Origin: Magnolia sinica
Taxonomy: Eukaryota; Streptophyta; Magnoliopsida; Magnoliales; Magnoliaceae
Length of the DNA stretch: 64,000 nucleotides
Assembly: GCF_029962835.1 (NCBI RefSeq)
Contig: NC_080588.1
Coordinates: 10,000,001 to 10,064,000 of the forward strand
Direction of reading: 5' to 3'
The position numbers were made by a program, and so were the translations under genes. Below, one piece after another: positions 23,331 through 59,338 of this stretch; the first letter of the stretch is position 1; every line of letters begins with the position of its first letter. The notes below the pieces were generated by a model that made no database searches, had not been told where the DNA came from, and worked only from the letters and a program-made list of their open reading frames with translations.

Positions 23331-23459
23331 CTAACCGTCTTTCTTCACGCACTGCACTTCATCAACACCCTCCAGAAGAACCCCATTAGCTCGTTCCTGC
23401 ACAGCCCATTCAAACCCCATAAAACCATGAACCATAACCACACCTCCACACCTTCCAAG
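23331..23459 (-). CDS. CRC: CRC-like gene, exon 7 (C-terminal tail and stop)
   Basis: 42 codons and TAG. After the acceptor agtcag it starts [20 protein letters not shown]; the GG..MVHGF part resembles the GGHNMIHGLGF tail of Arabidopsis CRC. The last 20 or so residues go beyond the Arabidopsis end. The acceptor choice rests on phase and on this similarity. Confidence 0.72.
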   Translation of the reverse strand, partial: LGRCGGVVMVHGFMGFEWAVQERANGVLLEGVDEVQCVKKDG

Positions 23460-26400
23460 CTGACTGGAATTTCTGCATGATCTGATCCGTCTATCATATG
23501 GTGCACATTCCATGGCCCAAAGTTCAGTCCAATCCACGCATCAGGTGGGCCACACCATATGAACAAACAGGTAGCTAGAATAATTTATTTTACTTGTCCA
23601 TTTGTTTCCTACACTGGCCCATCATTTGGGTTGATTGTCTGATTTCCTGCCGATATCATGGATGGCTTGGATCTTCACCATGTATGCCAGCTTCGCATGT
23701 TTAGTGAACCTCATTAGATTTCTTTACTTACATGTTCGTGGATGATATTTACTAGCTTTTCATTCTCAGGAGCCGATCCATGCGTCGTGTTCGGGTCATT
23801 CCTAGCCCACTGTCAATTATTCAGGATCAAAATATTAATTAATTAATTAATTAAAAATAAAAAGGATAGAAAATATGATTCAGTTAAATGAGAAAGTTCC
23901 ATTGAAATGTACGTTCTTCGCGGCCATGCTAAAGGCTTCACGATGAGGAATATCTGGATTCGCAGCTTTGATCCGCTGTATCTCCTCCCTGTAGACAGGG
24001 CCAAATTTCAGTAATAAAAGAGAAATAAATAAATAAATAAAAATCCCCGTATTGTAAGGAGAAGTTGTTGTATTATTAATATGAATGACAGTTATTAGCG
24101 GCAGCGGAGACATGCGGGACATCAAACGTGTATATCAGTGGGTATCGTGCACCTTGTGTTGTTTGTGTCTTAAATTTGTCATTAACAGTTTCTGTCGATG
24201 TCATTAATATACCACTTGAAGCCATCGAGCAAATGCCGATGCCATCATAAAATTCAAAAAATTTGTGTTAGTTGTTAGAACATTTTAGTGTGGTTACTTT
24301 ATGTCAATGAAGTAAGTTAGATGTGAATTGATAGATCCTTGATGGGTTGTTGATGACATCGAAGGTCTCATCGAAGATGTTGGTAGAATTATGTAAATCG
24401 GGAATTTGTTTTCTATTCCAGTTGTGATAGTATATATGTTGGATGTAATCGGGATTAGGGAATAGAGAGGTATTCTAGGGCTCTCTAATTCATTACTAAG
24501 GTTTCTGACGCAGGGGAGGACGTGAGGTCGAGCACCGTCTTCCTCAAGAGGATAACTATTCCGAATCCACGGAACTTCTTTGGACTCCTCACAGAGACTT
24601 CTCGAATCCACGAGGAAAGAAAGCAGAAAATAGAAATAAATTCTAATAAATTTGAAACTGATTGATGAATTATTAAAATCGAGTTCACAACCCTTTAAAT
24701 AAGGGTATCAAGCAATGGGAAAGAAATCATAATCAAACTACAACTCAAACTCCTAGAATCCGCGACTTACTATAAATAGTAAACTTACTATTTATAGACG
24801 GTCATGATGTCTACTAGTGCGCAAGGTTTTCGGCCAAAAATAGTAAGTGTCCTATTTGGCTTCACCAAACCGTTCCCCTAATTATTCTAAGCTCTTTTCA
24901 CGTTGGGCGCAACTCCTAAAGCCCAACGGATGAAGAGTTATAATCAAACTAAAACTTACTATTTATAGTAAAAACAAAATTAAAACAGGGAAACGACCAT
25001 CAATCAAGGGGTTTTTCGTAATTTCGGGCGGCGCAACCCGACGTAGCGGGTTGGTTGGCTAAAGTAGCTCGTTCTACCCCAAAATCATATATTTTACGTC
25101 AGCTAACTCATTCCGGATTGCGAGATACGTCTGATCTAAGGTCCGATGGTCCGAATCACTTCTGTCGTCGACCGGGCCTTTTCTGATCCATCTTGGCCAT
25201 GAAACTGTCCGCGACCCACTCTACATCAGTTTCAAGGGCATAACTAGGGCTTATGAAGTAGATTCAAGGCTTGTTCGAATTGGTAAGACTCTCTCTTTTA
25301 ATTTCTACTTTCATAGTGCATTACTTGTCACTTTGTGTCGTGGTTTTTCCCCCCAAGGGTTTTTCCATGTAAAATCTATATTGTTCTTATCTAGACTTGG
25401 TTGTACAATTGCATATACTTTTCTTGATTTGTCTATGGGTGTTTCCATGGTTTTCAACAAGTGGTATCAGAGTTATATATCGTTGGGAATAACGCTATAC
25501 ACGAATCGAGTTAGCTCGGTTAACTCGCTCGACTTGACTCGAAAAAGCTCTATTTGACTCGGTTCGAAACTCAGTTCGAGTCAAGTCGACTTGATTTTTG
25601 GAGCTCGAAAAAATTTCAGGCCGAGTTCCAGCTTGGTCAAGCTCGAATCAACTCGGATCGAACTAGTTTGATGACTTAGTTATTTTTATATTGATGGTGC
25701 TAACCAAGTGTTTGATGAAATGACTCAATGAAGTGTTGTTTCAGGTGTATACATTCTCTGTGAGATTGGCTGGTAGTGAGGAAGGTATGGATATGAAATA
25801 AATCACTACCAAAAGAAAAACATTACATGATAATACCTTTGGATCTTGATTTTGATGCTGCCTACTGAGTATTTGATGAAATACCTATAAACTACTGCTG
25901 ATGTTTTGCATACTGTGAGATATTGAAGGTGCACTCCATGTGTTTGAGAAAATGCCCCACTAGCTCGAACTCGGCTTGTATTGGCCCGAGCTGTTGACCG
26001 AATCGAGCCGAGCTAGCCAGTCAAGCTCAAGGACCGAGCCAAGCCGAGTTCAAGCTGGGGTCATCTAGAGGTCGAGTCGAGTCAAGCTATGTCATGCTCG
26101 ACTTGTGTACAACTCTAGTTGGGAAGCAGATCGAATTTGAAAGTAAGCAGATCGAATCTGAAAGCAATGTATCAATGGCATCTAATCCGAAGTTTAATGT
26201 AGAAAAATACTTTGGTAAAAATAATTTTAAACTATGGAAAGTTAAGATGAATGGTTTAAGCGAGAATTTTGAATTGGGTTTGATCATATGCATAAAGTTT
26301 CAAAGGGGGCACTCATAATCATGAAGGCACAGAGGAATGGAAACCTTTACAAGTTGATCGGGAGTACTTCATCGGGTGGTCCATACGTATGTGGCATGCA

Positions 26401-27639
26401 TGCGTAGGCCACATGAGTGAACAGGGCATGAAGGTACTTTCTTACCATTATTTAATTCTAGTTTTTAAAAGCATTGATTTTAGTATTTACAAGCAGTGTA
26501 TTTATGGTAACAGAGATTTCCATTTCACATAACTGTAGAGACTAGTAGCTAGGGACTCCCTCTTCACCATTTTACGAAGACAAGGTGCCTTCATCAAAGC
26601 ATACATATCATGCATTGCATTAACTAATATTTTCTTATGGATGTTTTTTCTTGTTACTTATGAAATGTATGTGTTATTATTGTGGAATGAGATTTAATTT
26701 TCCTCGTCATTTATACTATGTTTTCCATGGAAATATGAAATTATATAGTTTTAAGGAATATGTGAAGTATTTATGCTCTATCATATTCAAATTATTACCT
26801 TGAAATTCAATTTTTCGTGTCATTTATGAGAGTCAAAATCTAGAGCTATTACAGATGTTGTTCTTTGAAGTTGTTTATAGTTTAGGTTGCTATATTGTAT
26901 GGGTTGCAGATTGGGTAGGTGGAGTTTTGCTAGATGTGTCTTTGTGCGTAGGCTAATTACTTCCATTGTTTTATATGGGAGCTGGAGCTCTTCTGGAAAT
27001 GACCATGTAAGATGGTTGGATGCAAAGTATGCCATGTCTCTATTTTACTATATATTTTTTTAGTGTTTTTAAGGAATATCATGTGATAAGTGAGGCCTAT
27101 TAGTTTTTTTTGTGCTGCCCCTCTCATATTAGCGGGCCCAATTCATGGGAACTTCTCATGAGGTCGAGCTGTGTGGCCCACACCCTGATGTGTGTTGAAA
27201 ATCTATCTCATCATCTAGATGAAACATTTCATGGTGGGCCATGGGCTTAAAAATCAAGTCAATCCATGAATTGGGTGGGAAACACCACATACAATAGTTG
27301 AGAGGGGTTACCCTCCCATTAAAACATTCATAATCATTTATTGGGCCCACTAAGATGTGATTCACAAATTCAGTCCATTCATTGTGTGTGTCCCACCAGG
27401 ATTAGGGGTCGGACCAAGTTTTAGCCTCATCCAAAACTCATGAGGTGGGCCCCACCAAGTGCCTTTATATGTTTTAGGCATGTCTTCACATGGTTTTAGA
27501 TGGTATGGCCCACCTAAGTTCCATATACGGTTGATTTTTAACCTAAAGGGGACCCATCAAATGCACAGTATTGATGTTTGACACACATCACGGGGGTTCC
27601 CACACAGATCGACCTCATGAGAGGTCAACCTGATAGTAC

Positions 27640-27707
<68 letters not shown>

Positions 27708-30700
27708 CACACACATAATTTTTTGTTTTAAAAATGTACAAGTAGAAACAAAAGAAGAAGTTTAGCTATTAATGAGAAGGTCTAGCTCAAAGTATTGAGT
27801 AAAGCCCTTCCCCATTAGACGTGCTTTATGGCAAGTAAAGGACCCTATCATGGTTATATTTCAAAATGTACACCCACTTTCAACCAATAACCTAACAGCC
27901 CATGGGCAAAACAACTAACTCTCATATTCCTTAACACTCTTGGGCATCATCTCATCATTCATTATTGCATTCCATTAGGGATTTATATACAACTTTTTTT
28001 TTTTATGTTGTAGTGGATGAGATGTTTTTATTGACTCAAAAATAGTATTATTGACTTGAATTCACCATTGTCGTTATTGGTTCACAATTGGAGATCCCTA
28101 GTAAGGGCCTAGATGATGGAGAAGAAAGGGGTTAGGAACCCTTCTCTGCCGCACTGACGTGTTGTCTCCATTTTATAGGATTTATGAATTTTTTTGGATT
28201 ATGGGCAAAACTAAAATAACTCAACTACGATCATAACCATGGAGATGGAATGCTTGATATTGATCATAATTGAGGTGATTATTTCAAAAACTAAAAAGAA
28301 AATACAACAGGGAGTGTGTGAGAAAGGAGATGTGCAGTATAAATGTAAATGTGATGACAAGCCATAAATGAACAACATGGGATGAATGTTAGGGCACACA
28401 AATATGAATAATGTTCTTAAGATGGTCCTGTTGTGCGGTCGCACAATAGAGATGGATTGCGCAACTGCACAATGGTGATAATGGTGCCAGAATACTAGCT
28501 TGCAGGCAGGCTACCCAGATTGGACAGAAACCTATTGTGTGACCGCACAACAGGGGTATGATGCACGATTGCACAATGACCCTCGGTTGTGTGAATCTTG
28601 CAATTCACATGTGTGGAGGCCTATAAATACCTCTCTCCTCTCATTTGAACGATGAATAAGTGAAGAGTTATAGAGAGATTAGAGGAATCTTCAAGAGTCT
28701 TCCAGAGCCAAGAGTCGCAACATTCAAGTATCCCACGGTGCGACATGGGAGAAGAGAATAGAAGGAAGAAGATGCAAGGAGCAGAGTGGAAGAACAACCT
28801 ATTGCGTGACTATGCAACAAGGACTATTTGCACAACCGCGCAACAAAAGCCCCCACTATATTCGATGATTATGCACCATTAGAGATTAGTCTAAGATTTG
28901 ATCTTCTATGCCCGATTAATATGGGATTTGATCTCCTATACACATATTTTAGGCATTTCAGCATGGAACAGGGGTTTCAAACCCCACAACTCCTATGTCA
29001 TTACGATGAACGCTATGCAAGCCGAGATGCTACCGAAATTATCATTATTGAACTATTTTCAATTATATTGATTACGTGTATTATGTTTTAGAATCAAGGG
29101 CAATGTTAGGGATGTAAAAAGAATTCAAATTAAAGAAATAAAATGATGATATTCATTCTTTGACTTTCCTTTGGTATTGTTGAATGTGGATATTCCAATC
29201 TTCTTCTTCTTCTTTTTTTGAGAAAAACCCAGTAAATTTCATATATGGGGATCAAGCTGATCACATCTTTACAGAGAGATTCGAGTTGGCTAAAACAAAA
29301 AGTGAATGGGCCAACCTATCATGAAGAAAGGAAAACTGCACAAAAAACACTACCACTTTCTCAGCGAACCAAGCCCAACCCTGTCCAAGAAGATGAGACC
29401 TTTGGTGTGAGTAGTAAGGTCCGCCAGCATGTAATAGAAGAAAGAGGTTTGGGTCCCGCTACCCAACCTAGCCATGGCGTCTGCGGGTGCGCTGCCTTCC
29501 CTTAGGGAGTGGGAGAAGGTCACCCTGGCAATCCAGTAGAGCCATTTCCACCCTGGGGTTGCTGCACCCGAGAGGAAGTTGAAGATTAATTCCGAATCCA
29601 ATTCGATAATGATCTGATGGTACCCCTTTAAAAGGCCCAGGTGTAAACCATCATGGATGGCTCTGAGTTCCGCATGGGAGTTTTATGCCATCCCATAGCC
29701 TTCCGCAAAGGTAAAGAGAAATCCACTCAAATTGTCTCTGCAAAGACCCCCTCCTCCTGATGGGCCAGGGTTCCCAAGGGATGACCCATCGACATTTATT
29801 TTGACCCATCCAATAAGAGGCTGCTACCATCTTACAATGTAATTGGAGGGATTGCGCTGCGCATGGGAGGAAAGAGGAGAATACCCTAGAGTGAGTGGCT
29901 GATGCAGGCAGGGGGTTTGAGCATGCATAGACCCTGCTTTCTCCTTGAAGAAGTCTAACCACCTTTTAATGGGGGCCCGTAACACCTGTTTGGAGGGCGT
30001 GATACCCGAGAACATCGCTGCATTTCAAGCTTTCCAAACCTCCCAGAGCATATAGCATGGAGCCAGCTTATGGGGTAGGGAGGCATGACGGCCCACAGCG
30101 AGCGCTGACCACCATTGGACTAGACATTGTTCGACTGTTGAGGCTCGCTGAGTGTCGATGCCAAAGTAGGATCCGATGAATTACCAACCCGTATTAGTTA
30201 GGCCACCTTCGAGGAATAAGTGGGAGATTGATTCGCAGTCGATGCCCGACCCGTTAGGATAGGTCGTCGATTCGTTAGAACAACAACAAACACATTTAGT
30301 TGCCATATGGATGCATTTCGCCTGGATTCTACATTCTATCAGGACTACCTTCATCAAGATTCTCCACACCAATGTAGATATTTTTGGGGGAAGGGAGGGC
30401 TGCCAGATCCATCTGGCCCACTGCTTTCTCGGTTGGGCTGCTCTACATCAGTTCCAAGCCGATGAAACCGAGAATTCGCCTGATGGGGTGAATGGCCAAA
30501 AAGGGATATCAGGCCTAGTAGAAATGTAAAAACCTGCTTGAAAGATAAAATCTGACACCGCTTGAGGTAGGAATGTCAATACCAATCATGGGGGGAGAGG
30601 GTCTGATCTGCCCAAAAATTGATTAATCTTGAGCTGACGCAGGGAGGGGGGATATGGATCCCATCAATCCCCTGGAGTGGGCCAAGGCCTGTCCAATTCC

Positions 30701-33700
30701 AACTCCATAGGTTACTGTCTCTTGCACCTATCTGTAGCTGCGCAGCAAACTCCACTGAAGGGAGAAGACGATGGATTTGTTTCCAAATAGGGGAGGCAAA
30801 AGCAAGGGTGGGCCTTTGTTTATTTGGGTTGAGGCTCGATCCATATATAGCTACCATGAAGTTCCTCCATAGACCGTGTTCATGCTAGAAAAGAAAAGAC
30901 CAGGCCATTTTCAGCCTAAGTGCCTGCATGATATCACTTAGCCTCCTAATTCTGATGCCCCCTTCTGCCTTTGGGAGAGCTAGAGACCGCCAACTGCGCC
31001 AATGGAACTATGCTTTCCTTCCGACCAACCCCACAGAAAATCTGCTATCCGCCTTTCCAGGGATTGCAATACCTGCACAGGAATATGAGAAGCTGCGAGG
31101 CTATGAACTGGGATACTACTGAGCACGTTTTGGATATTCCGATCTTTGATAATTTTTTTTTGTTTGAAACAAAATGATGAATCCACTAGGGATCGAATGC
31201 AAAATCTCTGATTGTAATATCTACATTTGATATTAACAATGGGATAACTAAAGGACATTTTTCATCAATTGGCACTGTAATGGCACCAGAATGGTGACTC
31301 TCAATGGGAACATACCCCCCTTCATGTTTAAAATAAAGTACACTACGATTTAACCTAAATGACTTACTGACTGCTTCATTATCTAGGTACTTCTTCACAG
31401 TCACAATCACTTCTCTCCCAATCAATGTGGTTTTCTATTTCACGCCTAACGGATTCCCTGTTGACTACACCAGTAACATTCAATCACTATTCAAAAGGAC
31501 CATAGGGAAAGTTCAATCAGTCGTAACCGACAATAGAAAGCAGCGAGTAATGTCGTGAGTGATTTCTACTTCGCTGACAACACAAGAGGATGATGAAGAA
31601 TGGACAATGGTGGCATATAGGAAGGCGAAGACCCGTTTTCTCCCGATGAGGAGTCCAATGTCATTACGGGCAACTAGAGGGCTAGTTACATGCAATGCTG
31701 CAAGACACAACCCCACATTAGCTCCACCCCCACTTTATCCCGAATAGGCCAAAAGTACTCTCTTCGCTCTACAAGACTTTCCTACCCTTCTGGTTATAGT
31801 TTCATAGCCTACTTGGAAAGAAAAGGGAAAGACTCCTTTAACAAAATGAGTCATCATCCCCAAAATTTGTCGCGATAACCCCATCGAGAGTATCAACACT
31901 AAGCACACCTTGGTTAGAACCACTAGAATCACTGGGACTATGCGAAAATTTTAATAGATCCATCGTCGGCTCTTTCTCTTTAAACTCCCCCACGACGACT
32001 TATCTGTTCTCTCCCTTGACATCTAGACAATTAAGAAGTAAAGAGGCAACAATTTTCATGGCAATAACAAGTCAAACCTAGCCACTATCCACCGACAAAT
32101 GCCTGGTTGAGATGGCACATATATAGACCATCTTAATAGAAGAATGCAAAAACCTTAGAGAGGCATTGGCAACATGACTCGCAATGTATCCCAAGTAACC
32201 GCTCCTATCATGATGGTTGTTGTGAATCGAAATGAGCAACAAGTAGAAGGATCGCAACCGCTGAAGCAAGATCGCATGGATCAACACCCGCTATTCGCAC
32301 AATAACTCAAGAAAAAATCCGCCAAGTAATAGCCAAAGACGTGCGAATGGAAAGAGATAGAGAACTGGAGATTCTGTTTTCAAATATCGTACCAAGGTCA
32401 AGGATGTGTCATTTTCAACAAATTTCAAATATCCAAACTTTCAAAAGTTCAACGGGGATGGATCGTCGGAGGAACACTTGATGTATTTCACCACGACCAT
32501 GGAAAACTTCTCAATGATCTCATAATAATATTTACGACTATTTGGATCCTCTCTGACAAAAAAAGCCTTCAGGTGGTTTTCGGGCTTGGCACTCAAATTT
32601 ATACGTACATGAGACCAAATGCAGGATGCCTTTATGGCAAATTTCTTTTCATCTGATAGATATGTTAGCCTCACTAAATTGGCCTTTGTTCGTGTAACGC
32701 CCCGAATTTTTGTCAACCTGGAGTTAGACGTCCTTAAGCAATGGGTCAATCATAACCCCCTTGTTGACTTCTCAGAACTCAATCCTAGAGCCTCAAATCC
32801 CCTTTCAACCCATTTCCTTCAAAATCTCACCTTTCACCACCTTATTCTTAAAATTTTTTAACTACTTTCATATTAGACATGGATCCTAAAGTTTAGGTGA
32901 TAAAAAATAATACTTAAACAAAAAATTACTATAAATATTAAATAAATAAATAAAATAGATTTTTGACCATTAACATTATGAAATATAACAAAATAAATAG
33001 TTATTTGGATAGATCAGCTTCTCCAACCCCAAAATCATATATTGCACATCGAATAACTCATCTCGGGTTGTAAAATACACCCATTTCAAAATCTCATGGC
33101 AAAACACCACCAAACACCACAGCGGGCGGGCGGCGGAGCACCAAGTTATGGTGGACCCTCGCTGCAGATTTTCTGCACTTTTCAATCGACTTCAAAGAGT
33201 CATATCTCCCTCGTTATAACTCTGATTTATGTAATTCAAAAGCCAGATTAAATATTGATAAGTCTAATTTCATATAAAAATAAGTGAAAAATATAATAAA
33301 AATACTAATATAGTTAAATATAGGTTGTTGTGACAACTATCCAAAAATTATTAGTTTGGATAGCTGCTACTTCTAAAATTTTTATAATTTTTCTACAACA
33401 CAAAATCTAATGAAATTTGGTAGAGATGAAGTAGACTTGATGAAAACTACTAAAAAAATAATTTAAATAATATACTAACTAAAAGTGCCAAATGGTAGCA
33501 TACAACTACCCTAGGACCTTATCTTGTCGTAATTAGGGCAGAATTTAGTTAAGTACTAAACTAAACAATTGATGGATTTGGCTTGAACCACTTTCTGTAT
33601 GAACTACAAGACCCAAAACCTTTATAATCACTAACTCAATATTACTTAAAAATCTAAGAGCAATCTCAAACCTAGTTGCTATCAAGAGCATCTTGAAACT

Positions 33701-45700: not shown

Positions 45701-46708
45701 TCAACATGAATATGTCGGATGGTGGGAGCGTTGTAAGACCCGTGTCCTAATCCGTACCATTCTGTTAGCTTCCGCGGTCCTTCCGGTCAAATTCCGGCAA
45801 CCTTCGCACCGTATTCGGTGTTTGCGCACGATCCTAGGCCAGGTCCCGCGCACCGACGTCGGCTTGATCCGAAAGTTTTATCATAGCGACCGCGTCGTCG
45901 CCGCGGTTCCAACGCCGTGACTTGCGCACCGAACCGATACCCAGGCAAGAAGATGCCGATCTGCATTTATTCCAAAGAAACACCGCGCGTTGCGGATTTC
46001 GAGGGAATCTCTACACAATTAGTCCCACTAATTAACCATAAATGCAACCATACCTCAAAGTACTCCACCCATTCTCTCTTTTTCCAAAAGTCCACCATTC
46101 TTTCCACCTCACCATTCCTCTTTTTCTCATTTTCAACCTCAACCATCCCTCTTCTCCACCAATTTCAAACTAAACCATACCTCTCATCACTCCTTTCTTA
46201 CAACCATCACTCCACCCATCCCTCCATCCATTATTTCTATCTCTCCCTCTCATTCTCTAGCAATTTTTCCAAATCCCATGAGAAATTTCACTCATCCAAC
46301 ACTCCCTCTCAACTTCAAGTGTGGCCCACCCTCTCATCTCTAATCTCAACCATTCATCTTTCATCAACCTCCATTAAAAGTGAAGGTAAGGAGCTAAGGA
46401 GTCCAAGGGAGCAAGGAGAAGGAAGATAAGGTGGGTGATTTTCCATTATTTTAAGCTTTAGGCCCACTTGTTGGTGGGACCCATTTGGATGTATGTGATT
46501 TAATCAAGAGGGCCCATAGTGGCGGGGTTCCTCTATCTCACCGTGTATCTCTCTCTCTATCTCTCTCTCATTCTTTCTTTATAATGGTGTGGATCCCACC
46601 GATATGTGTTACATCTCCCCCGTCCATCTACATCAGACGGTGTGGCCCACTCTATTATAGGTGATGATCCGCACCCTCCACTGTTGGGATGGGCCCAATG
46701 CATCTTTC

Positions 46709-46787
<79 letters not shown>

Positions 46788-49700: not shown

Positions 49701-52700
49701 CATTGTATTTTCCCCTTCCAGTCGCATTGTACTCAAAATGTTTTTGATCATAGTGGATTTTGTGGTGGTGTTCTTGTGCTTATTGTTTGTGGGTTATGCT
49801 TTTGTTATGCTCATTATGAATCAGACTAATGATTTGAAACCCTCCTTGTGGTATCCCAGGATCGGAACCTGGTAAATGGGTGCCGGGATCCGAGAATGGG
49901 GTTCTACGGAGGCTGTCGGCGCCGGATTCGGCGATCGGGAATTTTGTGAGCCCGGTTTCCGAGTTCGGGGCGTGACAAGCGTGGCTGAACATCTAAACGA
50001 GTTCAACACAGTCATGAGCCAGTTGGAATCCGTTAGCATTGTTTTTGAGGATGAGGTCAGGGCGTTATTGATCTTATCCAGTTTATCAGATAGTTGGGAT
50101 GGTTTGGTGATTGTTGTGAGCAATTCCTCAAGGTTGACAAAGATGAAATTTGATGATCTGGCCGGTCTAATCCTCAGCGAAGAATCTAGAAGAAAGGCAT
50201 CAAGAGTTTCAGGGGATTCAGGGAATGTTCTAAATGTTAAAGGAAGAGGAAGATCGCTGAATAAAGGAGGCAATAAACACGGGCGTTCTATGTCGAGGAA
50301 AAAGTCCAAGGGACTGAAAGACAAAGATGAGTGTTGGCATTGTGGCAAGAAGGGGCACATGAAACGTGATTGCAGGGCGCTTAAGAATCAAGAAGGAAGC
50401 TCTCGAGGTGGGAAGGATTCAGTGAATCTATCTGAGGAGAGTGACACATAAGCATTGATCTTGTCTCTTGATGCGAGGAATGAGTCTTGGGTTATAGACT
50501 CGAGTGCTTTATTTCATGCCACTTCGTGTAAGGAATTTCTACGTGATTATATGTTAGGTGACTTTGAGAAAGTCTACCTGGGTGATGATGAGTCATGCAG
50601 TATCGTTGGAAAGGGAGACGTTCATATAAATCAGAAAGACGGAACAACTTTGAAATTGAAGGATGTCAGACATGTACTGAGTTTGAGAAGGAATCTGATC
50701 TCAGTGGGGCAGTTGGCCGATACTGGTTATGTGACGACATTCACTAGTGATTCCTGGAAGATCACAAAAGGTACTCTGGTGATATCTCGAGACAAGAAGG
50801 AAAGTACTTTGTACGTGACTTTAGGATCGTATAGTTCACTCGCAGTTGCATCAACTAGAGTGAATGAGCAGTTATGGCATCAATGGTTGGGACATATGAG
50901 TAAGAAGGGGATAAAAGTGTTATTGTCAAAAGGGAAGCTACCAGGGCTGAAGTCTATTGACTTGGAATTCTGCGAGGACTGCATGTATGGAAATCAGAAG
51001 AGGGTAAGCTTCAAGAAAATAGGACGCGCTCCAAAGATGTATCTGTTAGAGCTTGTACACACTAATGTGTGGGGACCGACACAGGTATTATCTCTTAGTG
51101 GCTCATGTTATTTTGTCTCTTTTATTGATGATGTTAGTAGAAAACTGTGGGTCTATTTCTTAAAGTATAAATCTGATGTATTTGATGTATTTAAGAAGTG
51201 AAAAGTCATGGTAGAAAACGAGACAGGTAAAACAGTAAAATATTTCAGATCTGATAATGGAGCAAGACTACTGTGATAAGAGATTTGAAGAGTATTGTGC
51301 AAGAAATGGAATTAAAAATCAGAAAATGGTTCCAGGGACACCGCAGCAAAATGGTGTGGCTGAGTGCATTAACAGGATTATCCTTGAGCATGCCAGGAGC
51401 ATGAGGTTACATGGAGGGTTGCCCGAGACTTTTTTGGCAGATGCTGTGAATACTTCCACATATCTCATCAATAGAAGTCCCTCAGCACCATTGGATGGTG
51501 GGCTACCAGAAGAAACGTGGACTAGGAAAGAAGTGAATCTTGCATATCTCAAAGTGGTTGGTTGCACTTCATATGTTTTCATTGATGCAGAGCACAGAAA
51601 CAAGCTGGATGCGAGTCCAGGAGGTGCACGTTTATAAGTTACGGGTAGCATGATTTTGACTATAGGTTTTGGGATGCAGAAAATAGAAAAATCATCAAAA
51701 GAAAGGACGTAGTCTTTAATAAAAAAAAAGTGATGCATAATGACTGTGTAAGAAAATAAGGCCAAGGAGAAAGAATTCGTAAAGTTGGAAGAGTTACCGG
51801 ACATGAGTGTTACAGCGCCACAGGATGATCATGCACATGAGCATTATGAGGCAAAGCTGCATACACCGGTTGTGAGGAGGTCTACTCGAGAGAGGAGACT
51901 TACGGTCCGATACTCACCCTCCTTACATTATCTACTGCTGACAGATAATGGTGAACAAGAGTGTTTTGAAGATGCATTACAGTCAGATACATGGGTTAAG
52001 TGGGAGCAGGCCATGGATGATGAGATGGATTCTTTTGAGTCCAATCGTACAGACGAGCTAGTCACTCTACCCAAGGGGAAGAGAGCTCTTCATAACAAGT
52101 GGGTTTACAGACTGAAGGAGGAGCACGATAGTTCGAAATGGTATAAAGCTAGATTTGTTGTGAAAGGGTTTCAACAAAAGGCAGGTATCAATTTCACTAA
52201 AATATTTTCACCTGTGGTGAAAATGTCTACGATTCGTATGGTCTTGAGTATAGTGGCTATAAAGGACTTACATCTAGGGCAGCTAGATGTTAAGACAGTC
52301 TTTCTTCATGAGGACCTTGAAGAAGAGATATACATGCATCAGCCGACAGGATACGTGACACCAGGAAAGGAGAATAAGGTGTGTAGACTGAAGAAGAGTC
52401 TATATAGCCTGAAGGAGGCCCTGAGACAGTGGTACAAGAAGTTCGACAGTTTCATATCGGGAAACGGTTTTAGAAGATGTCATGCAGACCACTGTTGTTT
52501 CTTAAGAAAGTTTGATACGTCATACATCATCTTTCTTCATTATGTTGATAATATACTTGTGGCCGGTTCAAGCATGAAGGACATCTCAGATCTTAAAAGA
52601 CGACTGTCTAGAGAATTTACTATGAAAGATTTAGGAGCTGCAAAACAAATCCTAGACATGAGGATAAAGCGTGACAGGGAAAACAAGAAACTGGTTTTGT

Positions 52701-55700
52701 CACAGGCAGAGTACATAGCCAAGGTACTTGATTGATTCAATATGGGAGGTGCTAAGCCGGTTAGCACTTCATTAGCCAACCACTTCAAGCTATCTAAGAA
52801 GCAAGGTGCAAAGATGCAAGAGAAATGGGACTACATAGCTAAAGTCCCATATGCATCGGCTATCGGGAGTCTCATGTATGCTATAGTGAGCACGAGGCCA
52901 GACATTGCTCAAGCAGTGAGAGTTGTTAGCAAGTTCATGAAGAACCCCGGAAAGGAACATTGGGAAGCTGTGAAGTGGATCCTTACATACTTGGTAGGTA
53001 CTAAGGATGTAAGGCTGTGCTATGGTGGATCAAAAATCAAGCTACAAGGCGACGTGGATTCAGATTTGGCAGGAGATATCGACAGCAGAAGAAGTACTAC
53101 AGGTTATGTCTTTACTCTGAGTAGTGCTTCAGTTAGATGGGTCTCTCAGTTACAAAAGATAGTATTTATCAGTACGATAGAAGTAGAATATGTTGCGGCT
53201 ACAGAAGCAGGCAAGGAGATGGTGTGGATGCAAGGTTTCATGGAAGAGTTTGGAAAGAAGAAAATAGATTGCAAGCTGTACAGTGACAGTCAGAGTGCAA
53301 TATACTTAGCTAAGAATTCAGCCTTTTATTTAAGGATCAAGCATATTACCATCAGATATCACTTCATACGTTCGTTACTGGAAGATGGATCGATTGCTCT
53401 AGAAAAGATTCATATAACTAAGAATCCTGCGAATATGCTGACTAAAGCGGTCACATGGGAGAAGCTAAAGTTCTGTTCAGCTTTGATTAGTCTTCAGGCT
53501 TGATGACGGGAGCTGGTGCACTCCGGATGAAGAAGACAAAGGTTTATGACGATGTGTCTCTAAGTGAGGGATTGTTGAAATGTGGAGCCACATTTGGGAG
53601 ATGCACAACTAGTCCTGACCCCTGCTCGACTGGTCGTGGGGTCCGCTCGTGGTCAGTCGTGGACCGGCTCGACTCAAAGTTCAGCGACATTAGTTTTTGG
53701 GTCCGAGGTGCTCGACCAGTTGTGGGTCATGCTCGAACGATCGTGAGATCTGCTCGATCGGTCGTGCAGTCCACTCGACCAGTCAAGGTTACACAGATTC
53801 GTTTCCGGATTTGATACGGACTGCTAAAAATTGAGTCGTTTTTCGTAAGGGTGCGAAAGGGAAGTTGCCAAAACTATAAATTGGGGTCCCTAGGGTTATT
53901 ATAGGGTTAAGGTGAATATTTGGGAGTTATTCTAAGGTGTAGACAAAGGTTTTCTCTGTATTTCCAAGGAAGAGGTTAGTATATTTCCTTGTAATCTTCG
54001 TTTTCTTCATAGTCAAAGTTTGCATCCGTGATTTTTTTAACCCTAGTTTGGGGTTTTTCCACGTATATCTTGTCTTGTGGTTTGTTTAGATTGCTTTGAT
54101 CTGTTTCTAGTTTATATTTCTTCTTGTTTATCGTTTGTGGGTAAGACTGGAGATTGGATCTCTGTTTACTACGTTATTGGCGTGCTACGCAACAACACGT
54201 TGCACGTATCTAGAGATTTTCGCCAAACGCTAATTCAGGCGCTGTTAGATGACGGGGTGAGGTAGGCATTACTCATTGAAATGAAAATTGTAGAAACAAA
54301 GGAAGGCAGTTGTATGGCATAGGATGTCACACACAAGGAAATGGAAGCAATTAACTGTATGTCCGTTATCACGTTCTCAGAGGATGATTTAATGTTCGGT
54401 GATAAAGAACATAACATAATACTTATGATCACTGGCTACATCCATGAGAAACAAGTCAAGCATATAATGCTGGATAATGGCTACATAGTGAACTTGTTAC
54501 CGCTAAGCATGCTCGTCAAACTGGGCTATCGTCGTTCGCATCTGCGTACTATCGGAATGATGATTCAATGATTTAATCCAGATGCCTAAAACGAACTGGG
54601 AAAAATCACATTGGTGCTAGAAATTGGAGATCTGGTCACAAACATCATGTGCCACGTAATCAACACTGTGACAACATCTAATTTACTCCTAGGGCAACCA
54701 TGGATGCACCAGTATAGCATCATGCCCTCCATGTTGTATTAGTGCTTTAAGTACCGTAGAAATGGCCTTCATTATAAGATAATGGCTGATACAAAGCCTT
54801 ATACAGTGGTAGAATCATTCTTTGCATATGCAAGTTATTATGACAAATTCACCACAAGAAAAATGAAACAGTGAATGAAGAAAGGCCACAGTCAATATAT
54901 CCTTTCTGGTTCCATTGCCACTATTTTCATAGTATCAAGTATCAAATGATGTCGTATATCCTTTCTGCATGGAGGAATGTCTCAAGAACATACACCAAAT
55001 ATAGTGATGGTCTAACTTATCATGGAAAAGACTATTATATATAAAATAAAGACTACAAAAAACTTTGGGTGGAAGATGAAACACTGGCGCATTAAGGTTG
55101 TAGAACATTTGGTCAAAGACATGAACAGAAGTATGCCTATGAGGATTGCCTCATCTCTGTAGACTTTGAAATTTGCATTTCAGTCGAAATGAATCGGAAT
55201 GACATCAAGGAGATTTGGCAATTTTTACGATTCGGCAACCAAATTTTGTTTAGGCAATATAGTTATAAGACGTACCACAAGTAGAAAAGAAGGTTTGGAC
55301 TTCATGACATATTTTTTACATTGTCAGAAAAAGGGTTTTTATTTGATTATTAAATTAATTTTTAAACATATTGACAAAATATTTAAATTATGGTAGGTAC
55401 CTTAGATCTACTTTTTAACAAATATAACCATGCGAATCAAGAAAAATCATCAACAAAGGATGTAAAATAATTATGTCCAAAATAGAAATAATCAAGGTAG
55501 GGCTTCAAATATTTGAATGGAATAAACTAAAAAGGAAAAGACAATTTATGATCAAGTGAATGCATAAGAGAGTTATGTAACCGTTGGGAAATGCATTGAC
55601 AAAAAATAAATTATCAAGAAACGAGAGAATGTCAATGATAGTAATCTAAACAAAGAGAGATAAAATCCTTGTCTAGACACATGTGAAAAGGATCCATTGG

Positions 55701-56786
55701 CATGGAAAAAATTAGGGTAAGTATTTTCCCCATCGCTCTTTGTTTATAATAGAAAATAATAAAAGAATGGTAATCTAAAATAATAAAAGAATGGTAATCT
55801 AAGGTCTGGCAAATAAAATACACTCATTCACGCTAAAAACAACTACTAAAATGACATGATATCAATGGCAGTAGCAATGACAATTGAAATCGTAGTATTG
55901 CCTCTTTCTTACTTCATGAATCGATTGTAAGCCGATGGAAGCCTATGTTTCTTCTCAGGTGCTGCACACAGAACCCAACCAACATAAAATGTATACATAC
56001 ATTGAGATGACCTATTGCTCTTAAAACATTAAAAGTAATAATGCTCCTAGTTGCACCAGGACACTGGAACAATCCAATGGATCAATCTGGATTGCCCTTC
56101 AGGTCCAGAAGAATTTTCATGGGCTACTATGAAAAAATCATACCAATGGGATGATTCTAACCATCCATTCAATTGCCTATAAACTGGACGGTCAAGATCA
56201 CTTACAAAAATAGGTCAAGTGAAACGTTTTAACCACCTGGTGGTTGGCAGATGGATTGGTTGTGGCCATAAATAATCACTTTATCAGAGAATCCTGACCA
56301 TACCATGGATTGGGAAATAGATGGCTGTAAGAAGAAGACCAAATTGATTGTATTACCAAGTGTCCCAATACAACCATGAGGACCAGAACTTATGATGCTT
56401 TGAGTTTACTGATCGTTTCTCTACATATAAGCACGTACGTATATTACAGGTTTGCTAATTCCACAGGCGTATTGCAGCCTTATCTATCCAGTCGTGGGCA
56501 CATGTGCTAGTATGGAACATGTGCAGAAGATCTGAGACTTCCATCAGGTGGACTAAGTTACCCAGGTGATTAGACCTTCTAAATTAGGAATCAATCCACA
56601 TCTCAGGTGGGCCACAGTTAGAAAATATTGTTTTAATAGTTGGTGAAAGATCTTAGCATTATTTCCAACCATTTGGAAAGCTCAGATCTAACATACGTGT
56701 TCCATATTGGCAGGTGTGACTGCGCGTGCATAGGTAGGGCTCCACACTTGTGTTGAATTGTAAAAAGCTAACCTACATATATTCAT

Positions 56787-56840
<54 letters not shown>

Positions 56841-58112
56841 TCTACGTTTAACAATGTAAGGAATGGTGGGGATCGTCTGTTGGCTGGACGTTGATGAAGC
56901 GGACGGTGAGTGATGAACTCTCCTGAGATCGTTGGAGAAACCCTGATTCTCCATTCAAAGAAGAATAGAAAAGAAAAGAAAAATATATAATTTCCTTCAA
57001 CTGAAATTCTTTTTTTTTTTTCATTATTTTGGTTTTACTTAGAATGAGATCGTAAGAAAATGAAAATGCAAATCATACAATCATGTATTTGGTCTTGAGA
57101 AATGCAATACACTGGAGTGCTCTTTGTTAGTTTACTTCCCTTACATGTTCAAACAAGGCACATATGTGAGATCACAGCCGCTCAATTCGATATCCCGCAA
57201 TGTGTAGATACCGTATCTCTAAGATCAGAACAATCTGATGATCAGGTGGCCCACATGTGTATCATGGTATTTGGAATTTTGGTCAATGAAAGACCAGAGA
57301 ATTTTCCACAATAAAAATTAAAAAAACACGTGTGGAATCTAATAAGATACCTTAATGGTCAATCTAGCCGAAATGGGAGTCCGAAGCTTAGATGTCTTGT
57401 TGGTAGAGCTATATATTTTTTGTTTTGTTTTAATGAAATCTAAGTTTTGCTATAAAAAATAAATAAATAAACAAATTATAAATAAATAATAAAAAAAAAT
57501 CTAGCCGAAATCACATTTATGGGAGATTCCTAACCATCTGATCAATAGCGTGCAAATGGGCAATCCAAATAAATCCTAACAAAAAGGTCCAATCGTCAAA
57601 CTAGATTATGCATGTGGTGGGCCTTTTTCATTTTCAAGTGATGATCCTAACCATCCCAACTGCATGATTCGGAGAAAATGGAGTGTTATAACAAGAACTG
57701 GCCATCATTCAGATGGTTATGATCATGTGATCAATGTCGTTTTGGCATAGTCCATAATGCTACTTTGGAGTCTCATTTGTCCCACACAACTCTTTTCCGT
57801 TACACTAACGTTTAAATTATTTGGATAGGACCATTCTCTGTGAAGGGATGAACAATAAAAAATAAAATAAATAAAAAAGCAGCAGCCACAACAACAACAA
57901 CAGAAACAGCAACAACAACACCACCACCACGAGGATACTACGATGATAGAACTACGCAGATGAACCCAAGGACTGACCTGACATCCTAGTTGAAGATCCG
58001 GGCATTGGTTTTGCACCATAGCTCTGGTGCTGAGAAAGGAGAGATTACTACAATGGCCACATTTTACTGTCACAGTCTCCAAAAATCGCTTGCATGGAAC
58101 TCCAACCTGCGT

Positions 58113-58154
<42 letters not shown>

Positions 58155-58251
58155 GAAATATATCCTTCCTAATAAGAGAGCCAGATATTTTATATCAAGG
58201 TAATCATGAAATTAATGGATAATACAAAACGCGCGCTCTTACACACACAAA

Positions 58252-58324
<73 letters not shown>

Positions 58325-58692
58325 CTTAGGTAAAAATGAAGCACGTTGAATCATACATGGATTTTCACCATTTCTTTTGGAAGAATAAGAAGAAGAGAAA
58401 AAAAGAGGAGAAGAAAAGAGGGAAGGCAGTGCAAAACATATGAGAGAGGGAGCGTAGTAGAACAAAGATCATCTTGCTAGAACTAGATGTAGGTCATGAA
58501 TGCAAATGTGCGTTAATTTGTAATGTTCATGTGCTTTGCTCTCATGTCCTTCAAAACTATGAAGGAGGTCTTTCTGGAACAAAATCAAAACTACATGGGT
58601 GGTGTTATTTTCATGTATATTACCACTAGCATTGTGTTGCAGAAGTTGCAGTTCACGTAGAAGACATGCTCCGGCGGTTGAGCGAACTCCAT
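23331..58692 (-). CDS. CRC: CRABS CLAW-like YABBY transcription factor, seven exons, 32-kb intron
   Basis: Nuclear DNA-binding protein. In flowering plants CRC/DL-type YABBY genes act in carpel (and in eudicots nectary) development. Exons: 58692-58624, 58106-57978, 56942-56846, 55961-55913, 23988-23913, 23809-23753, 23459-23331. Lengths 69, 129, 97, 49, 76, 57 and 129 join in phase to 201 codons plus stop, and all six introns are GT-AG. The C2C2 zinc finger uses C15, C18, C39 and C42 (spacing 2-20-2). The HMG-like YABBY domain covers about residues 98-145 ([17 protein letters not shown], then [20 protein letters not shown]). The [15 protein letters not shown] stretch, EHVFYV before the finger and a Ser/Thr-rich linker before PPEKK point to CRC rather than other YABBY clades. 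No stop or frameshift was seen. Intron 4 is 31,924 bp and full of nested transposons. Whether it is spliced in vivo needs RNA data. Confidence 0.9.
23460..23752. mobile_element. Intron 6 with MITE-derived sequence
   Basis: Holds words of the MITE family (caggtgggccacaccatatg, catggcccaaagttcagtcc). A MITE remnant therefore lies within 100 bp upstream of exon 7. Confidence 0.45.
23753..23809 (-). CDS. CRC: CRC-like gene, exon 6
   Basis: 57 bp in phase 0 between attgacag and gtaaat. Reads [19 protein letters not shown]. The Trp-Ala start directly after AAKN is the family norm (AAKNWA), which fixes the acceptor. Confidence 0.85.
23913..23988 (-). CDS. CRC: CRC-like gene, exon 5 (YABBY domain core)
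   Basis: 76 bp; reads [20 protein letters not shown] then MAAKN, the most conserved YABBY signature. It is 31.9 kb from exon 4 but completes the split Lys115 codon exactly (AA|G). Acceptor tctacag, donor gtacat. Met135 stands where the family usually has Ala or Thr. Confidence 0.92.
24130..25260. other. Repeat-derived DNA, partly LTR-like
   Basis: No coding region. The sub-stretch 25070-25115 (accccaaaatcatatatt...taactcattccgg) resembles positions 33025-33068 and 40003-40035 in the LTRs of the LARD-like element. The motif actatttatagt also recurs here. Probably an eroded LTR of a related element. Confidence 0.35.
25262..26460 (+). mobile_element. Copia retrotransposon remnant
   Basis: A 3' LTR-end-like stretch (about 25262-25459) is followed by tggtatcagag (25462-25472), the primer-binding site for initiator tRNA-Met. 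After a hAT insertion comes the gag start (26166-26260, [18 protein letters not shown]). After a deletion there is a short GAG-pre-integrase piece (26389-26442, [17 protein letters not shown]). The rest of the element is missing. Strand + is antisense to the CRC-like gene. Confidence 0.7.
25490..26117. mobile_element. hAT-type non-autonomous element
   Basis: The 8-mer gttgggaa stands at 25482-25489 and 26118-26125, the 8-bp target duplication of hAT elements. The ends are imperfect inverted repeats (taacgctatacacgaatcga against tagagttgtacacaagtcga in reverse). The interior is rich in gctcgactcgag-like motifs. It lies between the primer-binding site and gag of the Copia remnant. Confidence 0.7.
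26461..27140. other. No gene recognised
   Basis: AT-rich intronic DNA without recognisable domains or repeat ends. Confidence 0.4.
27146..27635. mobile_element. MITE with roughly 50-bp inverted ends
   Basis: The left end (cttctcatgaggtcgagctg...gatgtgtgttgaaaat) is matched in reverse by the right end (tttgacacacatcacggg...agatcgacctcatgagag). The interior (ttaggcatgtcttcacatgg, gggacccatcaaatg) is homologous, in reverse, to the two tandem units at 47390-48085. Confidence 0.65.
27646..27708. repeat. (TA)n then (GA)n microsatellite
   Basis: Compound dinucleotide run directly after the MITE. Confidence 0.9.
27709..28389. other. No gene recognised
   Basis: Intronic DNA without a recognisable frame or repeat end. 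Confidence 0.4.
28390..29100 (+). mobile_element. Probable LTR fragment
   Basis: Contains at least five variants of a short palindromic motif of the form tgtgcgaccgcacaa (about 28430, 28460, 28535, 28565, 28840). Between them lies a promoter-like ggcctataaatacctctc (28617-28634). This build is common in plant LTRs. LTR ends were not fixed. Confidence 0.45.
29203..31131 (-). mobile_element. 5'-truncated LINE with 15-bp target duplication
   Basis: The 15-mer ggatattccaatctt (29188-29202) recurs as ggatattccgatctt (31132-31146), one mismatch. The T-rich start at 29203-29219 is the poly(A) tail of a minus-strand element. Minus-strand frames, broken by shifts, show ORF2 C-terminal parts in order: [19 protein letters not shown] (about 31000-31090), a Cys/His-rich zf-RVT-like stretch (about 30200-30340), and an RNase H tail with [20 protein letters not shown] (29350-29510). 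It lies in sense with the CRC-like gene. Confidence 0.8.
31147..32692 (+). mobile_element. Old Ty3/gypsy element, first part (leader and gag)
   Basis: A damaged plus-strand gag gene. [15 protein letters not shown] at about 31590-31635 is an N-terminal gag-like stretch. From about 32424, in shifting frames, come [40 protein letters not shown] and [20 protein letters not shown], the Retrotrans_gag domain. The frame is cut at 32692 by the LARD-like element and resumes at 43650. Stops and shifts show that it is dead. Confidence 0.7.
32693..36759 (+). repeat. 5' LTR of the LARD-like element
   Basis: 4,067 bp. Starts tgtaacgccccg and ends gggcattaca. A TATA-like tatataag at 34233-34240 precedes a C/T-rich leader and may be the promoter. 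The paired LTR is about 105 bp shorter; one cause is a stretch near 35355-35450 that is missing there. Confidence 0.85.
36763..36774 (+). other. Primer-binding site (initiator tRNA-Met type)
   Basis: tggtatcagagc three bases after the 5' LTR; the standard complement of the initiator tRNA-Met 3' end used by many plant LTR elements. Confidence 0.85.
36775..39682 (+). other. Interior of the LARD-like element
   Basis: A plus-strand frame at 37028-37738 (236 codons) is Pro/Ser-rich at first and ends in a basic stretch ([20 protein letters not shown] at about 37606-37665 and on). I do not recognise it as gag. The rest is AT-rich without domains. Purine-rich polypurine-tract-like sequences occur three times, at about 39152-39166, 39509-39522 and 39667-39681; only the last abuts the LTR. 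Confidence 0.6.
39683..43644 (+). repeat. 3' LTR of the LARD-like element
   Basis: 3,962 bp. Starts tgtaactctctag and ends gggcgttaca. TATA-like tatataag at 41206-41213. Visible substitutions and small indels against the 5' LTR show that the insertion is not very recent; divergence was not computed. Confidence 0.85.
43650..44730 (+). mobile_element. Old Ty3/gypsy element, second part (gag end)
   Basis: Continues gag after the LARD insertion ([11 protein letters not shown] near 43671-43704). Later come [18 protein letters not shown] (about 44052-44105) and a C/H-rich [20 protein letters not shown] (about 44159-44218), typical of the gag end of this gypsy group. It ends with an SHLKRI-type stretch interrupted at 44730 by the Copia element. 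Confidence 0.7.
44731..45341 (+). repeat. 5' LTR of the Copia element
   Basis: 611 bp. Contains about six variants of gctcgaccggtcgtg between 44777 and 44935. The downstream part (taaggtgaatattgaggagt...tgtaatcttcgttttcttca) looks like transcribed R/U5 sequence. Confidence 0.88.
45344..45355 (+). other. Copia primer-binding site
   Basis: tggtatcaaagc two bases past the LTR; one base differs from the usual initiator tRNA-Met site. Confidence 0.75.
45370..45731 (+). pseudogene. Copia gag, N-terminal part
   Basis: Plus-strand frame with [18 protein letters not shown] and [20 protein letters not shown], the N-terminal Copia gag (DUF4219/UBN2-like) region. The frame is cut after the Gly-Ser codons at 45731 by the solo LTR and resumes in the same phase at 49978. 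Confidence 0.85.
46717..46781. repeat. (TA)n microsatellite
   Basis: Long TA run within the solo LTR; shorter TA runs follow at about 46833-46850 and 46880-46893. Confidence 0.9.
47390..48085. repeat. Two MITE-type units in tandem (about 378-bp offset)
   Basis: 47390-47708 and 47768-48085 run in parallel: cacggccccagctgtgggcc, catttgatgggtcccc, aaaatcatgtgaag, ttggtggggcctacctga and gggctggattgtg occur in both in the same order. In reverse, the same family forms the MITE at 27146-27635. Confidence 0.7.
49978..50451 (+). pseudogene. Copia gag, C-terminal part with zinc knuckle
   Basis: Resumes gag after the solo LTR ([12 protein letters not shown]). It carries the CCHC knuckle [14 protein letters not shown] at about 50335-50376, which binds the element RNA. 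The frame ends in TAA at 50449-50451; the polyprotein would normally read on into protease, so this is a nonsense mutation. Confidence 0.85.
50455..51201 (+). pseudogene. Copia protease and integrase start
   Basis: [13 protein letters not shown] at about 50488-50526 is the aspartic protease site; the usual D-S-G triad reads D-S-S, so catalysis is doubtful. Then come the GAG-pre-integrase domain ([17 protein letters not shown]) with CEDCMYGNQ, and the integrase core start ([19 protein letters not shown]). It stops at TGA 51199-51201, a position normally Trp. Confidence 0.85.
51202..51637 (+). pseudogene. Copia integrase core, frameshifted
   Basis: After the stop the integrase continues to an RSDNG motif near 51248-51262. 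A frameshift there leads into [13 protein letters not shown], then [13 protein letters not shown] (the catalytic Glu region) and [11 protein letters not shown] further stop lies at 51635-51637, and the stretch up to 51785 is broken by stops. Confidence 0.8.
51785..52735 (+). pseudogene. Copia reverse transcriptase
   Basis: RVT_2 domain: [56 protein letters not shown] and [17 protein letters not shown] in order. The catalytic box reads YVDN instead of YVDD, so one metal-binding Asp is lost. The frame ends in TGA 52733-52735 just before the normal ...FNMGxAKPV stretch, again a nonsense mutation. Confidence 0.88.
52742..53503 (+). pseudogene. Copia RNase H domain
   Basis: [18 protein letters not shown], then the RNase H motifs [37 protein letters not shown] and [14 protein letters not shown], ending [18 protein letters not shown]. 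The acidic residues are largely present. It ends near the expected place before the 3' LTR. Confidence 0.85.
53573..54194 (+). repeat. 3' LTR of the Copia element
   Basis: 622 bp, preceded by a purine-rich taagtgaggga that may be the polypurine tract. Collinear with the 5' LTR with moderate divergence. Confidence 0.88.
54200..54950 (+). mobile_element. Old Ty3/gypsy element, third part (protease)
   Basis: Resumes directly after the Copia element with [16 protein letters not shown], which completes the YDA.. stretch cut at 44730. The protease region follows: [20 protein letters not shown] and [16 protein letters not shown], where the usual D-x-G active site reads D-N-G. Then come [16 protein letters not shown] and [20 protein letters not shown], all typical of this gypsy group. 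No reverse transcriptase follows, so the element is cut off near 54950. Confidence 0.75.
54951..55912. other. Intron 4, gene-proximal part
   Basis: AT-rich, no recognised domains. A 24-bp unit (aaaataataaaagaatggta and four more bases) is repeated in tandem at about 55753-55800. Confidence 0.45.
55913..55961 (-). CDS. CRC: CRC-like gene, exon 4 (start of YABBY domain)
   Basis: 49 bp; reads [15 protein letters not shown] with split codons for Pro99 and Lys115. Acceptor tgtgcag, donor gtaagaaa. The small size and the phases are, as I recall, those of this exon in other YABBY genes. Confidence 0.9.
56033..56395. mobile_element. MITE in intron 3 (TAGTGCTCCTAGTTGCA family)
   Basis: The left end aatgctcctagttgcaccag...ggacactgg is matched in reverse by ccaagtgtcccaatacaacc...gaccagaactt at the right end. 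Same family as 62606-63016. Confidence 0.55.
56791..56836. repeat. (GA)n microsatellite next to the intron 3 donor
   Basis: On the minus strand it is a CT run starting about 9 bases after the donor of exon 3. Confidence 0.88.
56846..56942 (-). CDS. CRC: CRC-like gene, exon 3 (Ser/Thr-rich linker)
   Basis: 32 codons plus one base. The polar linker includes [20 protein letters not shown], comparable to the Ser-rich linker of Arabidopsis CRC that precedes KPPEKK. The acceptor aatcag follows a pyrimidine tract, and the donor is aaac|gtagat. A (CT)n run starts 9-10 bases past the donor. Confidence 0.85.
56943..57977. other. Intron 2 of the CRC-like gene
   Basis: 1,035 bp. Holds a CAA/CCA-rich run at about 57885-57932 and MITE-like words (gatcaggtggcccacatgtg). 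No extra exon seen. Confidence 0.7.
57978..58106 (-). CDS. CRC: CRC-like gene, exon 2 (second zinc-finger pair)
   Basis: 43 codons starting [20 protein letters not shown]39 and C42 complete the zinc finger. The acceptor is acgcag. Only four bases (aaaa) and cgcag separate a (CT)n run from the exon. The donor is cag|gtcagt. Confidence 0.88.
58107..58623. repeat. Intron 1 with two (GA)n runs
   Basis: 517 bp. (GA)n at 58116-58151 and 58254-58320. The first, read as CT on the coding strand, takes the place of the polypyrimidine tract of the intron 1 acceptor. Confidence 0.8.
58624..58692 (-). CDS. CRC: CRC-like gene, exon 1 (start codon, first zinc-finger pair)
   Basis: Begins [19 protein letters not shown]15 and C18 are the first zinc-ligand pair. 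The start is the ATG at 58692, preceded by a CT-rich leader. Ends in phase 0 at ATGCTAGTG|gtaata. Confidence 0.88.
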
Positions 58693-58790
58693 CACGGCGA
58701 GAGAGAGGGAGAGAGAGAGAGAGAGGGAGAAGTAGAGTGCAGATATTTCTAGAGGGAGGGAGAAGTAGAGTGCAGATATTTCTACTCTCG
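58693..58790 (-). promoter_or_regulatory. CRC-like gene 5' leader: CT-rich with 33-bp tandem duplication
   Basis: Directly upstream of the ATG the minus strand is CT-rich (58693-58735). A 33-bp unit containing gggagaagtagagtgcagat (plus strand) occurs at 58725-58757 and again from 58758. No clear TATA box was seen between the ATG and the MITE at 58855. Confidence 0.5.
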
Positions 58791-58854
58791 TAATAATTCA
58801 CTTCATGCACAGCCTAGTTAAACGGAAGCGGATTGCGTCCTACCCCTGCCTGGA

Positions 58855-59338
58855 CGATAATCAGTCCAGGCAGGGATATTTGGGACCCAGTATGATGTAT
58901 GGATTTTATCCACGCCATCCATCCTTTTTTCCATATCATTTTTGCATATCAAACCAAAAATGAGGTAGATTCAAGGCTTAAGTGGACCACACAGTCGGGG
59001 TTTAACGCTTACCATTAAAAATTTCTTGGGAGATACAGAAGTTTTCGATCAAGCTGACATTTGTGTTTTCACTCATCAGGTCTATATGACATTATGAATA
59101 GGTTGGATGGAAAATAAACATCACGTTAGCTCTAGGATGGTTTCAACGGTGGGTATAATTATCACATTATATTTATCAATTTTTGTCCTATAAACTAAAA
59201 TGACCCATTTTGAGCTTTGGATCTTTATCAATTTTGGTCCCGTATACTAAAATGTTCTGAAAAATTGGATGGACGGCGTGGATAAAACATATAGATCACG
59301 TTGGGCCCCACAGAGCCCCTGCCTAGACGGATTATCCT
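58855..59338. mobile_element. MITE about 160 bp upstream of the CRC-like start codon
   Basis: The left end (gataatcagtccaggcaggg...tttgggacc) matches the right end in reverse (gataatccgtctaggcaggg). The interior has the family words (aatgaggtagattcaaggc, cgatcaagctgacatttgtg, tcacgttgggccccacagag). A hairpin cctgcctggac / gtccaggcagg sits at 58847-58874. Confidence 0.65.

Follow-up and report, generated by a model that had tools for sequence, protein, structure and literature searches.

A CRC/DL-type YABBY gene of Magnolia sinica with a 32-kb, transposon-rich fourth intron

Ping is a DNA transposon. In rice, its insertion into intron 4 of DL reportedly reduces expression weakly and gives a mild drooping leaf phenotype, to go by the title of the 2008 report of Ohmori et al. 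A published account of the structure of a Magnolia CRC gene was not found in our literature search. In the orchid Phalaenopsis equestris, the two DL genes (PeDL1 and PeDL2) are described with seven exons and six introns, intron 4 being large and particularly repeat-rich; each gene lies in two parts on separate scaffolds, and the legend mentions introns whose size is unknown (PMC8268020). Magnoliids and Chloranthus likewise have long introns in otherwise ordinary genes, as reported in figures that are genome-wide (PMC8626473; PMC7917104). The mean intron is given as 2.87 kb in Magnoliaceae, and long introns are common in magnoliids generally; in Chloranthus, LTRs are named as contributing most to them (PMC8626473). 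Introns of Magnolia biondii are reported to average 2,774 bp (median 525 bp), some genes having exceptionally long ones (PMC7917104), and for Kmeria the mean is given as 2,852 bp (PMC11246460).

The gene described here lies on the minus strand of a 64-kb window of Magnolia sinica DNA (the whole stretch analysed; no N, 39% G+C). It resembles rice DL with Ping in carrying transposon sequence in intron 4 of the orthologous gene, but the rice case is a single transposon with, by title, weakly lowered expression, whereas the M. sinica insertions are LTR retrotransposons. With PeDL1 and PeDL2 it shares the seven exons and the large, repeat-rich intron 4, resolved here at 31,924 bp as against the orchid genes lying over scaffolds (PMC8268020). 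Because of the Phalaenopsis and rice DL genes, intron 4 of CRC/DL can be said to have taken up repeats or a transposon elsewhere too. The original prediction called such an intron unusual in a compact developmental gene. This is weakened by the long introns published for Magnoliaceae, other magnoliids and orchid DL, although intron 4 is still some eleven times as long as the mean of 2.87 kb for Magnoliaceae (PMC8626473).

In our assessment the locus is, with high probability, the M. sinica CRC/DL orthologue, with seven exons and a product of 187 aa, and its intron 4 was most likely enlarged passively by transposons. The gene is an ordinary orthologue; the intron is very long but explicable, in line with published magnoliid genomes.

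Gene structure and identity of the protein

As read from the window sequence, the seven exons run from 58692 down to 23331 (Table 1), with GT-AG borders at all six introns and a joined frame that is in phase without an internal stop. Exons 4 and 5, although 31,924 bp apart, complete a split Lys codon (AA/G). All of this had been proposed in the original prediction and was borne out on reading the sequence, as were the proposed lengths of exons 1–5; the lengths given for exons 6 and 7 were not. A tblastn search of the 187-aa protein against the window returned nine rows: one for each of the seven exons, and two at chance level (E 6.5 and 9.5).

Table 1. Features of the CRC/DL gene and of its fourth intron (positions in the 64-kb window)
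Feature	Position	Strand	Size and remarks
CRC/DL exon 1	58624..58692	-	69 bp; start codon ATG at 58692; sequence reading and tblastn
CRC/DL exon 2	57978..58106	-	129 bp; second half of zinc finger; sequence reading and tblastn
CRC/DL exon 3	56846..56942	-	97 bp; Ser-rich linker; sequence reading and tblastn
CRC/DL exon 4	55913..55961	-	49 bp; conserved YABBY core begins; ends in AA of split Lys codon
CRC/DL intron 4	23989..55912	-	31,924 bp; GTAAGAAA...TGTCTACAG
LTR retrotransposon 1	32693..43644	+	10,952 bp; antisense to gene; paired LTRs, ends, target duplication
Copia LTR retrotransposon 2	44731..54194	+	~9,464 bp; antisense to gene; LTRs and Copia domains
Insert within gag of element 2	45750..49900 (approximate)		~4.1–4.2 kb; gag model split
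RVT_3 (RNase H-like) fragment	29353..29682	-	intron 4, gene's strand
CRC/DL exon 5	23913..23988	-	76 bp; remainder of YABBY core
CRC/DL exon 6, corrected	23732..23809	-	78 bp; donor CAT/GTAAGT
CRC/DL exon 7, corrected	23331..23396	-	66 bp with stop TAG; acceptor TGTGCAG/GAACGAG

Each of the two exon-6 ends can be combined with either exon-7 end to give an open, in-phase frame, four models in all. The ends were settled on 78 bp and 66 bp because the product of the resulting 564-bp CDS is identical, letter for letter over all 187 residues, to a public protein, "protein DROOPING LEAF [Magnolia sinica]" (P0001). The model first proposed does give 606 bp, that is 201 codons and a stop, but its product departs from P0001 in exons 6 and 7, having 21 residues extra and seven lost relative to the corrected version. 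We thus rejected both an exon 6 of 57 bp ending at 23753 (donor CTA/GTAAAT) and an exon 7 of 129 bp starting at 23459, the product in each case differing from P0001 and the 21 added residues being intronic on the corrected model. Two mixed models (long exon 6 with long exon 7, short exon 6 with short exon 7) were also discarded as open and in phase but unlike the public protein. When the protein was aligned with 17 chosen relatives, the corrected C-terminal tail fitted those of monocot DL proteins, for example Lilium AERANGFLLGSFDAFK.

The product is therefore already public as one whole protein spanning the long intron; the P0001 record may be homology-guided. Iso-Seq data for M. sinica are mentioned in its genome paper. 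That simple gene finders would split the gene or miss it, as had been expected, did not hold for M. sinica, although in Phalaenopsis the repeat-rich intron 4 is reported to have left both DL genes in pieces on different scaffolds (PMC8268020).

Assignment to the CRC-type YABBY genes with an intact frame, also part of the original prediction, is upheld by Pfam, by the identity with P0001 and by a YABBY phylogeny. The protein has a C2C2 zinc finger at its N terminus and a YABBY (HMG-like) domain at its C terminus, matched far beyond chance and above cut-off by PF24868 (YABBY_N; residues 6–57, E 3.5e-22) and PF04690 (YABBY; residues 85–147, E 7.6e-33), and the zinc-finger residues C15, C18, C39 and C42 are invariant in 18 aligned proteins. 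Solved structures gave 12 matches at E 1 or below, the best at 0.012; all are chains of TFAM, SWI/SNF subunit E or CCDC124, and none is named YABBY. The tree comprised 47 rows, namely 44 chosen from 165 retrieved proteins together with Arabidopsis FIL, YAB2 and INO. The 44 CRC/DL rows are united in a single clade (100/100) apart from the three Arabidopsis proteins, and the window protein lies inside it, grouped with Chimonanthus and Cinnamomum (97/92); in this tree 16 of 44 inner branches are unresolved, and the program warns that long branches meet at the outgroup join. None of the names FIL, YAB2, YAB3, YAB5 and INO occurs among the best 120 of 764 matches listed, some rows of which are unnamed or generally named.

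The exon sizes were compared with those printed for magnoliid CRC genes in Table 2 of PMC7824534, which sum to the ORF only with one base added to each. Exons 1, 2, 4 and 5 of Cinnamomum micranthum CRC, printed as 68, 128, 48 and 75, equal those of M. sinica (69, 129, 49 and 76) once this base is allowed, whereas exon 3 has 91 bp as against 97 bp (PMC7824534). Piper nigrum CRC is near (72, 132, 91, 49 and 76), and the first exons of the Litsea, Phoebe and Chimonanthus salicifolius genes are annotated otherwise in the same table (PMC7824534). Judged by its sequence, the window gene is a CRC/DL-type YABBY gene with the magnoliid CRC exon pattern, and its orthologues suggest that it functions in the carpel.

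Several repeats surround the gene. Just upstream of the start codon, a 33-bp unit is duplicated in tandem (58718–58784), overlapping a GA run. A short repeat is present in three diverged copies (58880–59156, 12504–12719 and 1566–1860) in which no clear terminal inverted repeats were found; one copy lies ~190 bp upstream of the CRC start codon and is adjoined by a 36-bp imperfect palindrome near 58841–58878. Beyond the 3' end, a 185-aa ORF on the plus strand (20621–21178) has an RVT_3 (RNase H-like) domain and is probably a retroelement fragment; RVT_3 was the one match when Pfam was run on 11 of the 38 ORF pieces in the flanks. Degenerate AACCTA-type units (telomere-like, six-base) form long arrays at 3156–7798, where longer periods of, for example, 38 and 248 bp are also present, and at 8724–9383, with a tandem array of 26-bp units (GACGGTCCATGGCCGTCC...; 8195–8570) between them.

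Contents and probable enlargement of intron 4

The original prediction had placed the gene among transposons, and two LTR retrotransposons do make up 20.4 kb of intron 4. The LTRs of element 1 (32693–36759, 4,067 bp, and 39683–43644, 3,962 bp) are 90.8% identical, and the element has the ends TGTAA...TTACA and an exact 5-bp target duplication, GTTCG, on both sides. Its 5' LTR is followed by TGGTATCAGAGC, which we take to be the primer site of an LTR retrotransposon, and its longest ORF (36992–37738) has no Pfam match. Element 2 has LTRs of ~610–620 bp (~44731–45341 and 53573–54194) that are ~86% identical, with ends TGTTG...CAACA; its flanks, ACGCG and ACACG, are alike at four of five positions if the 3' end is placed by eye at 54194, whereas an end at 54195 gives no match. 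Pfam found in it copia-type gag (PF14223, in two pieces), PF13976, PF22936 and PF07727, with PF25597 below cut-off, and the gag, pre-integrase and RVT_2 domains are in separate stop-to-stop pieces. The position of the primer site puts both elements on the plus strand and hence in antisense orientation to CRC/DL.

In element 2, positions 1–99 of the gag model stop near 45732 and positions 96–170 start near 49972. Because the two pieces are ~4.2 kb apart, we read the sequence between them as a nested insert; a search for its target duplication yielded nothing convincing, the best flanking match being 7 bp. Within this apparent insert, a 372-bp stretch stands in tandem (~78%; 47384–48134), and an inverted partial copy is located 20 kb away at 27343–27539. 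The RVT_3 fragment on the gene's strand is probably derived from a non-LTR element, and the 11.5 kb of intron 4 outside elements 1 and 2 is mostly without assigned origin. We also considered a host gene nested in the intron and rejected it: the Pfam scan covered 25 of the 57 intron-4 ORF pieces of at least 75 aa, and the matches, in six of the 25 (one below the curated cut-off), are all to retroelement families.

The K2P distance between LTRs is 0.0996 for element 1 and 0.16 for element 2, the latter computed with LTR ends one base off the final ones. At a faster substitution rate of 1.3e-8, these distances correspond to ~4 and 6 million years. At the rate of 1.51e-9 quoted in PMC8626473, they correspond to ~33 and ~53 million years. 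When only transversions are counted, the two distances hardly differ (0.026 and 0.024), so the apparent age gap between the elements may stem from extra transitions. LTR dating thus yields no firm age for either element.

On the passive scenario, an intron 4 of whatever ancestral length would have received the two elements (10,952 and ~9,464 bp), the second later being struck by another insert, and further sequence would have been added as well. CRC/DL would be transcribed through intron 4 and the intron then presumably spliced out in vivo, which would leave the protein unaffected. Slower or lower expression may be a cost of such length, and the expansion is likely to have been nearly neutral.

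Alternative explanations for the locus

Rather than being tolerated, the long intron 4 or elements in it could have been kept for delaying or tuning CRC/DL expression. This would be compatible with passive enlargement as far as the anatomy goes, but we consider it improbable. The reported effect of Ping on rice DL expression and phenotype points in that direction. So does the large, repeat-rich intron 4 of both Phalaenopsis DL genes (PMC8268020). However, no constraint or regulatory element was found in intron 4 of the window alone, Rfam returned no structural RNA at gathering scores in the 64-kb window, and long introns are reported as common in magnoliids generally (PMC8626473).

A second alternative, which we regard as very unlikely, is that the insertions or some other cause stopped correct splicing and that the exons are those of a young pseudogene whose frame merely happens to be open still. 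A short gene with a repeat-rich intron of 32 kb would be consistent with this, and LTR pairs that are 90.8% and ~86% identical indicate that some time has elapsed since insertion. The end branch of the window protein (0.24) is also twice the tree median (0.11), but it is within the range of other magnoliids (Cinnamomum 0.18, Chimonanthus 0.35). Against a relic, the frame, start, stop and all splice dinucleotides are kept, as are 50 of the 52 residues invariant in the 17 chosen relatives (the changes being A23V and V96I); in a leave-one-out count, each of the other relatives misses 0 to 6 invariant residues.

How much weight such intactness bears was gauged by a simulation of neutral decay, with rates taken from the LTR pairs (shorter alignments, K 0.0984 and 0.1486) and gene death set at the arrival of the element. 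The frame and the 24 splice-site bases survived together, with no frameshift, at a frequency of 0.059 (element 1) or 0.018 (element 2), and the simulated chance of at most two changes in the 52 residues was 0.09 or 0.009. Death at insertion is disfavoured only moderately, because the frame alone survives neutral substitutions in 0.34 (element 1) or 0.22 (element 2) of runs. The simulation is accordingly moderate evidence with respect to death at insertion, and a recent death is not disfavoured by it at all.

Finally, a joining of exons 1–4 and exons 5–7 across mis-assembled repeats is hardly credible: the splitting of both Phalaenopsis DL genes at the repeat-rich intron 4 marks this as a hard place to assemble (PMC8268020), but the window is free of N, the target duplication of element 1 is exact and its ends match, the possible duplication of element 2 is near-exact, exon 5 carries on the exon-4 frame and split codon, and the M. 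sinica genome paper reports a contig N50 of ~45 Mb and nanopore data.

Copy number and the Liriodendron question

The original prediction had named a second intact CRC copy as the finding that would make this gene a relic. None was seen: among the best 120 of 764 matches listed, one protein has a Magnolia name, P0001, which is the sole member of its cluster and on one contig, and this too argues against a relic that has been replaced. When exons 1–4 were searched apart, no Magnoliaceae-named entry besides P0001 appeared among the best 120 of 320 listed, and with exons 5–7 none appeared among the 27 of 27 listed, some rows being unnamed in both searches.

Liriodendron belongs to the same family as Magnolia. 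One survey reports no CRC protein in it (PMC7824534), and CRC expression was not detected in nectary RNA-seq of L. tulipifera in a study that took the L. chinense genome as its mapping reference (PMC6889543); for the M. sinica gene, these reports would favour a relic. A long intron could be the cause of the CRC gap in Liriodendron, as could true absence or biological silence in the nectary.

More tentatively, CRC/DL intron 4 might be a recurrent, tolerated landing place for transposons in rice, orchids and Magnolia, its size hiding Magnoliaceae CRC from surveys, its length tuning output and the absence from Liriodendron being an annotation gap; taken as a whole, we find this doubtful. As an ordinary CRC/DL orthologue with an intron most likely enlarged by transposons, the M. 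sinica locus shows, in full resolution, a carpel gene whose coding frame is maintained over an intron of 32 kb rich in transposons; in orchid DL genes, too, this intron is rich in repeats. It may be worth re-checking the reported absence of CRC from Liriodendron one exon at a time, with introns of tens of kb allowed for.
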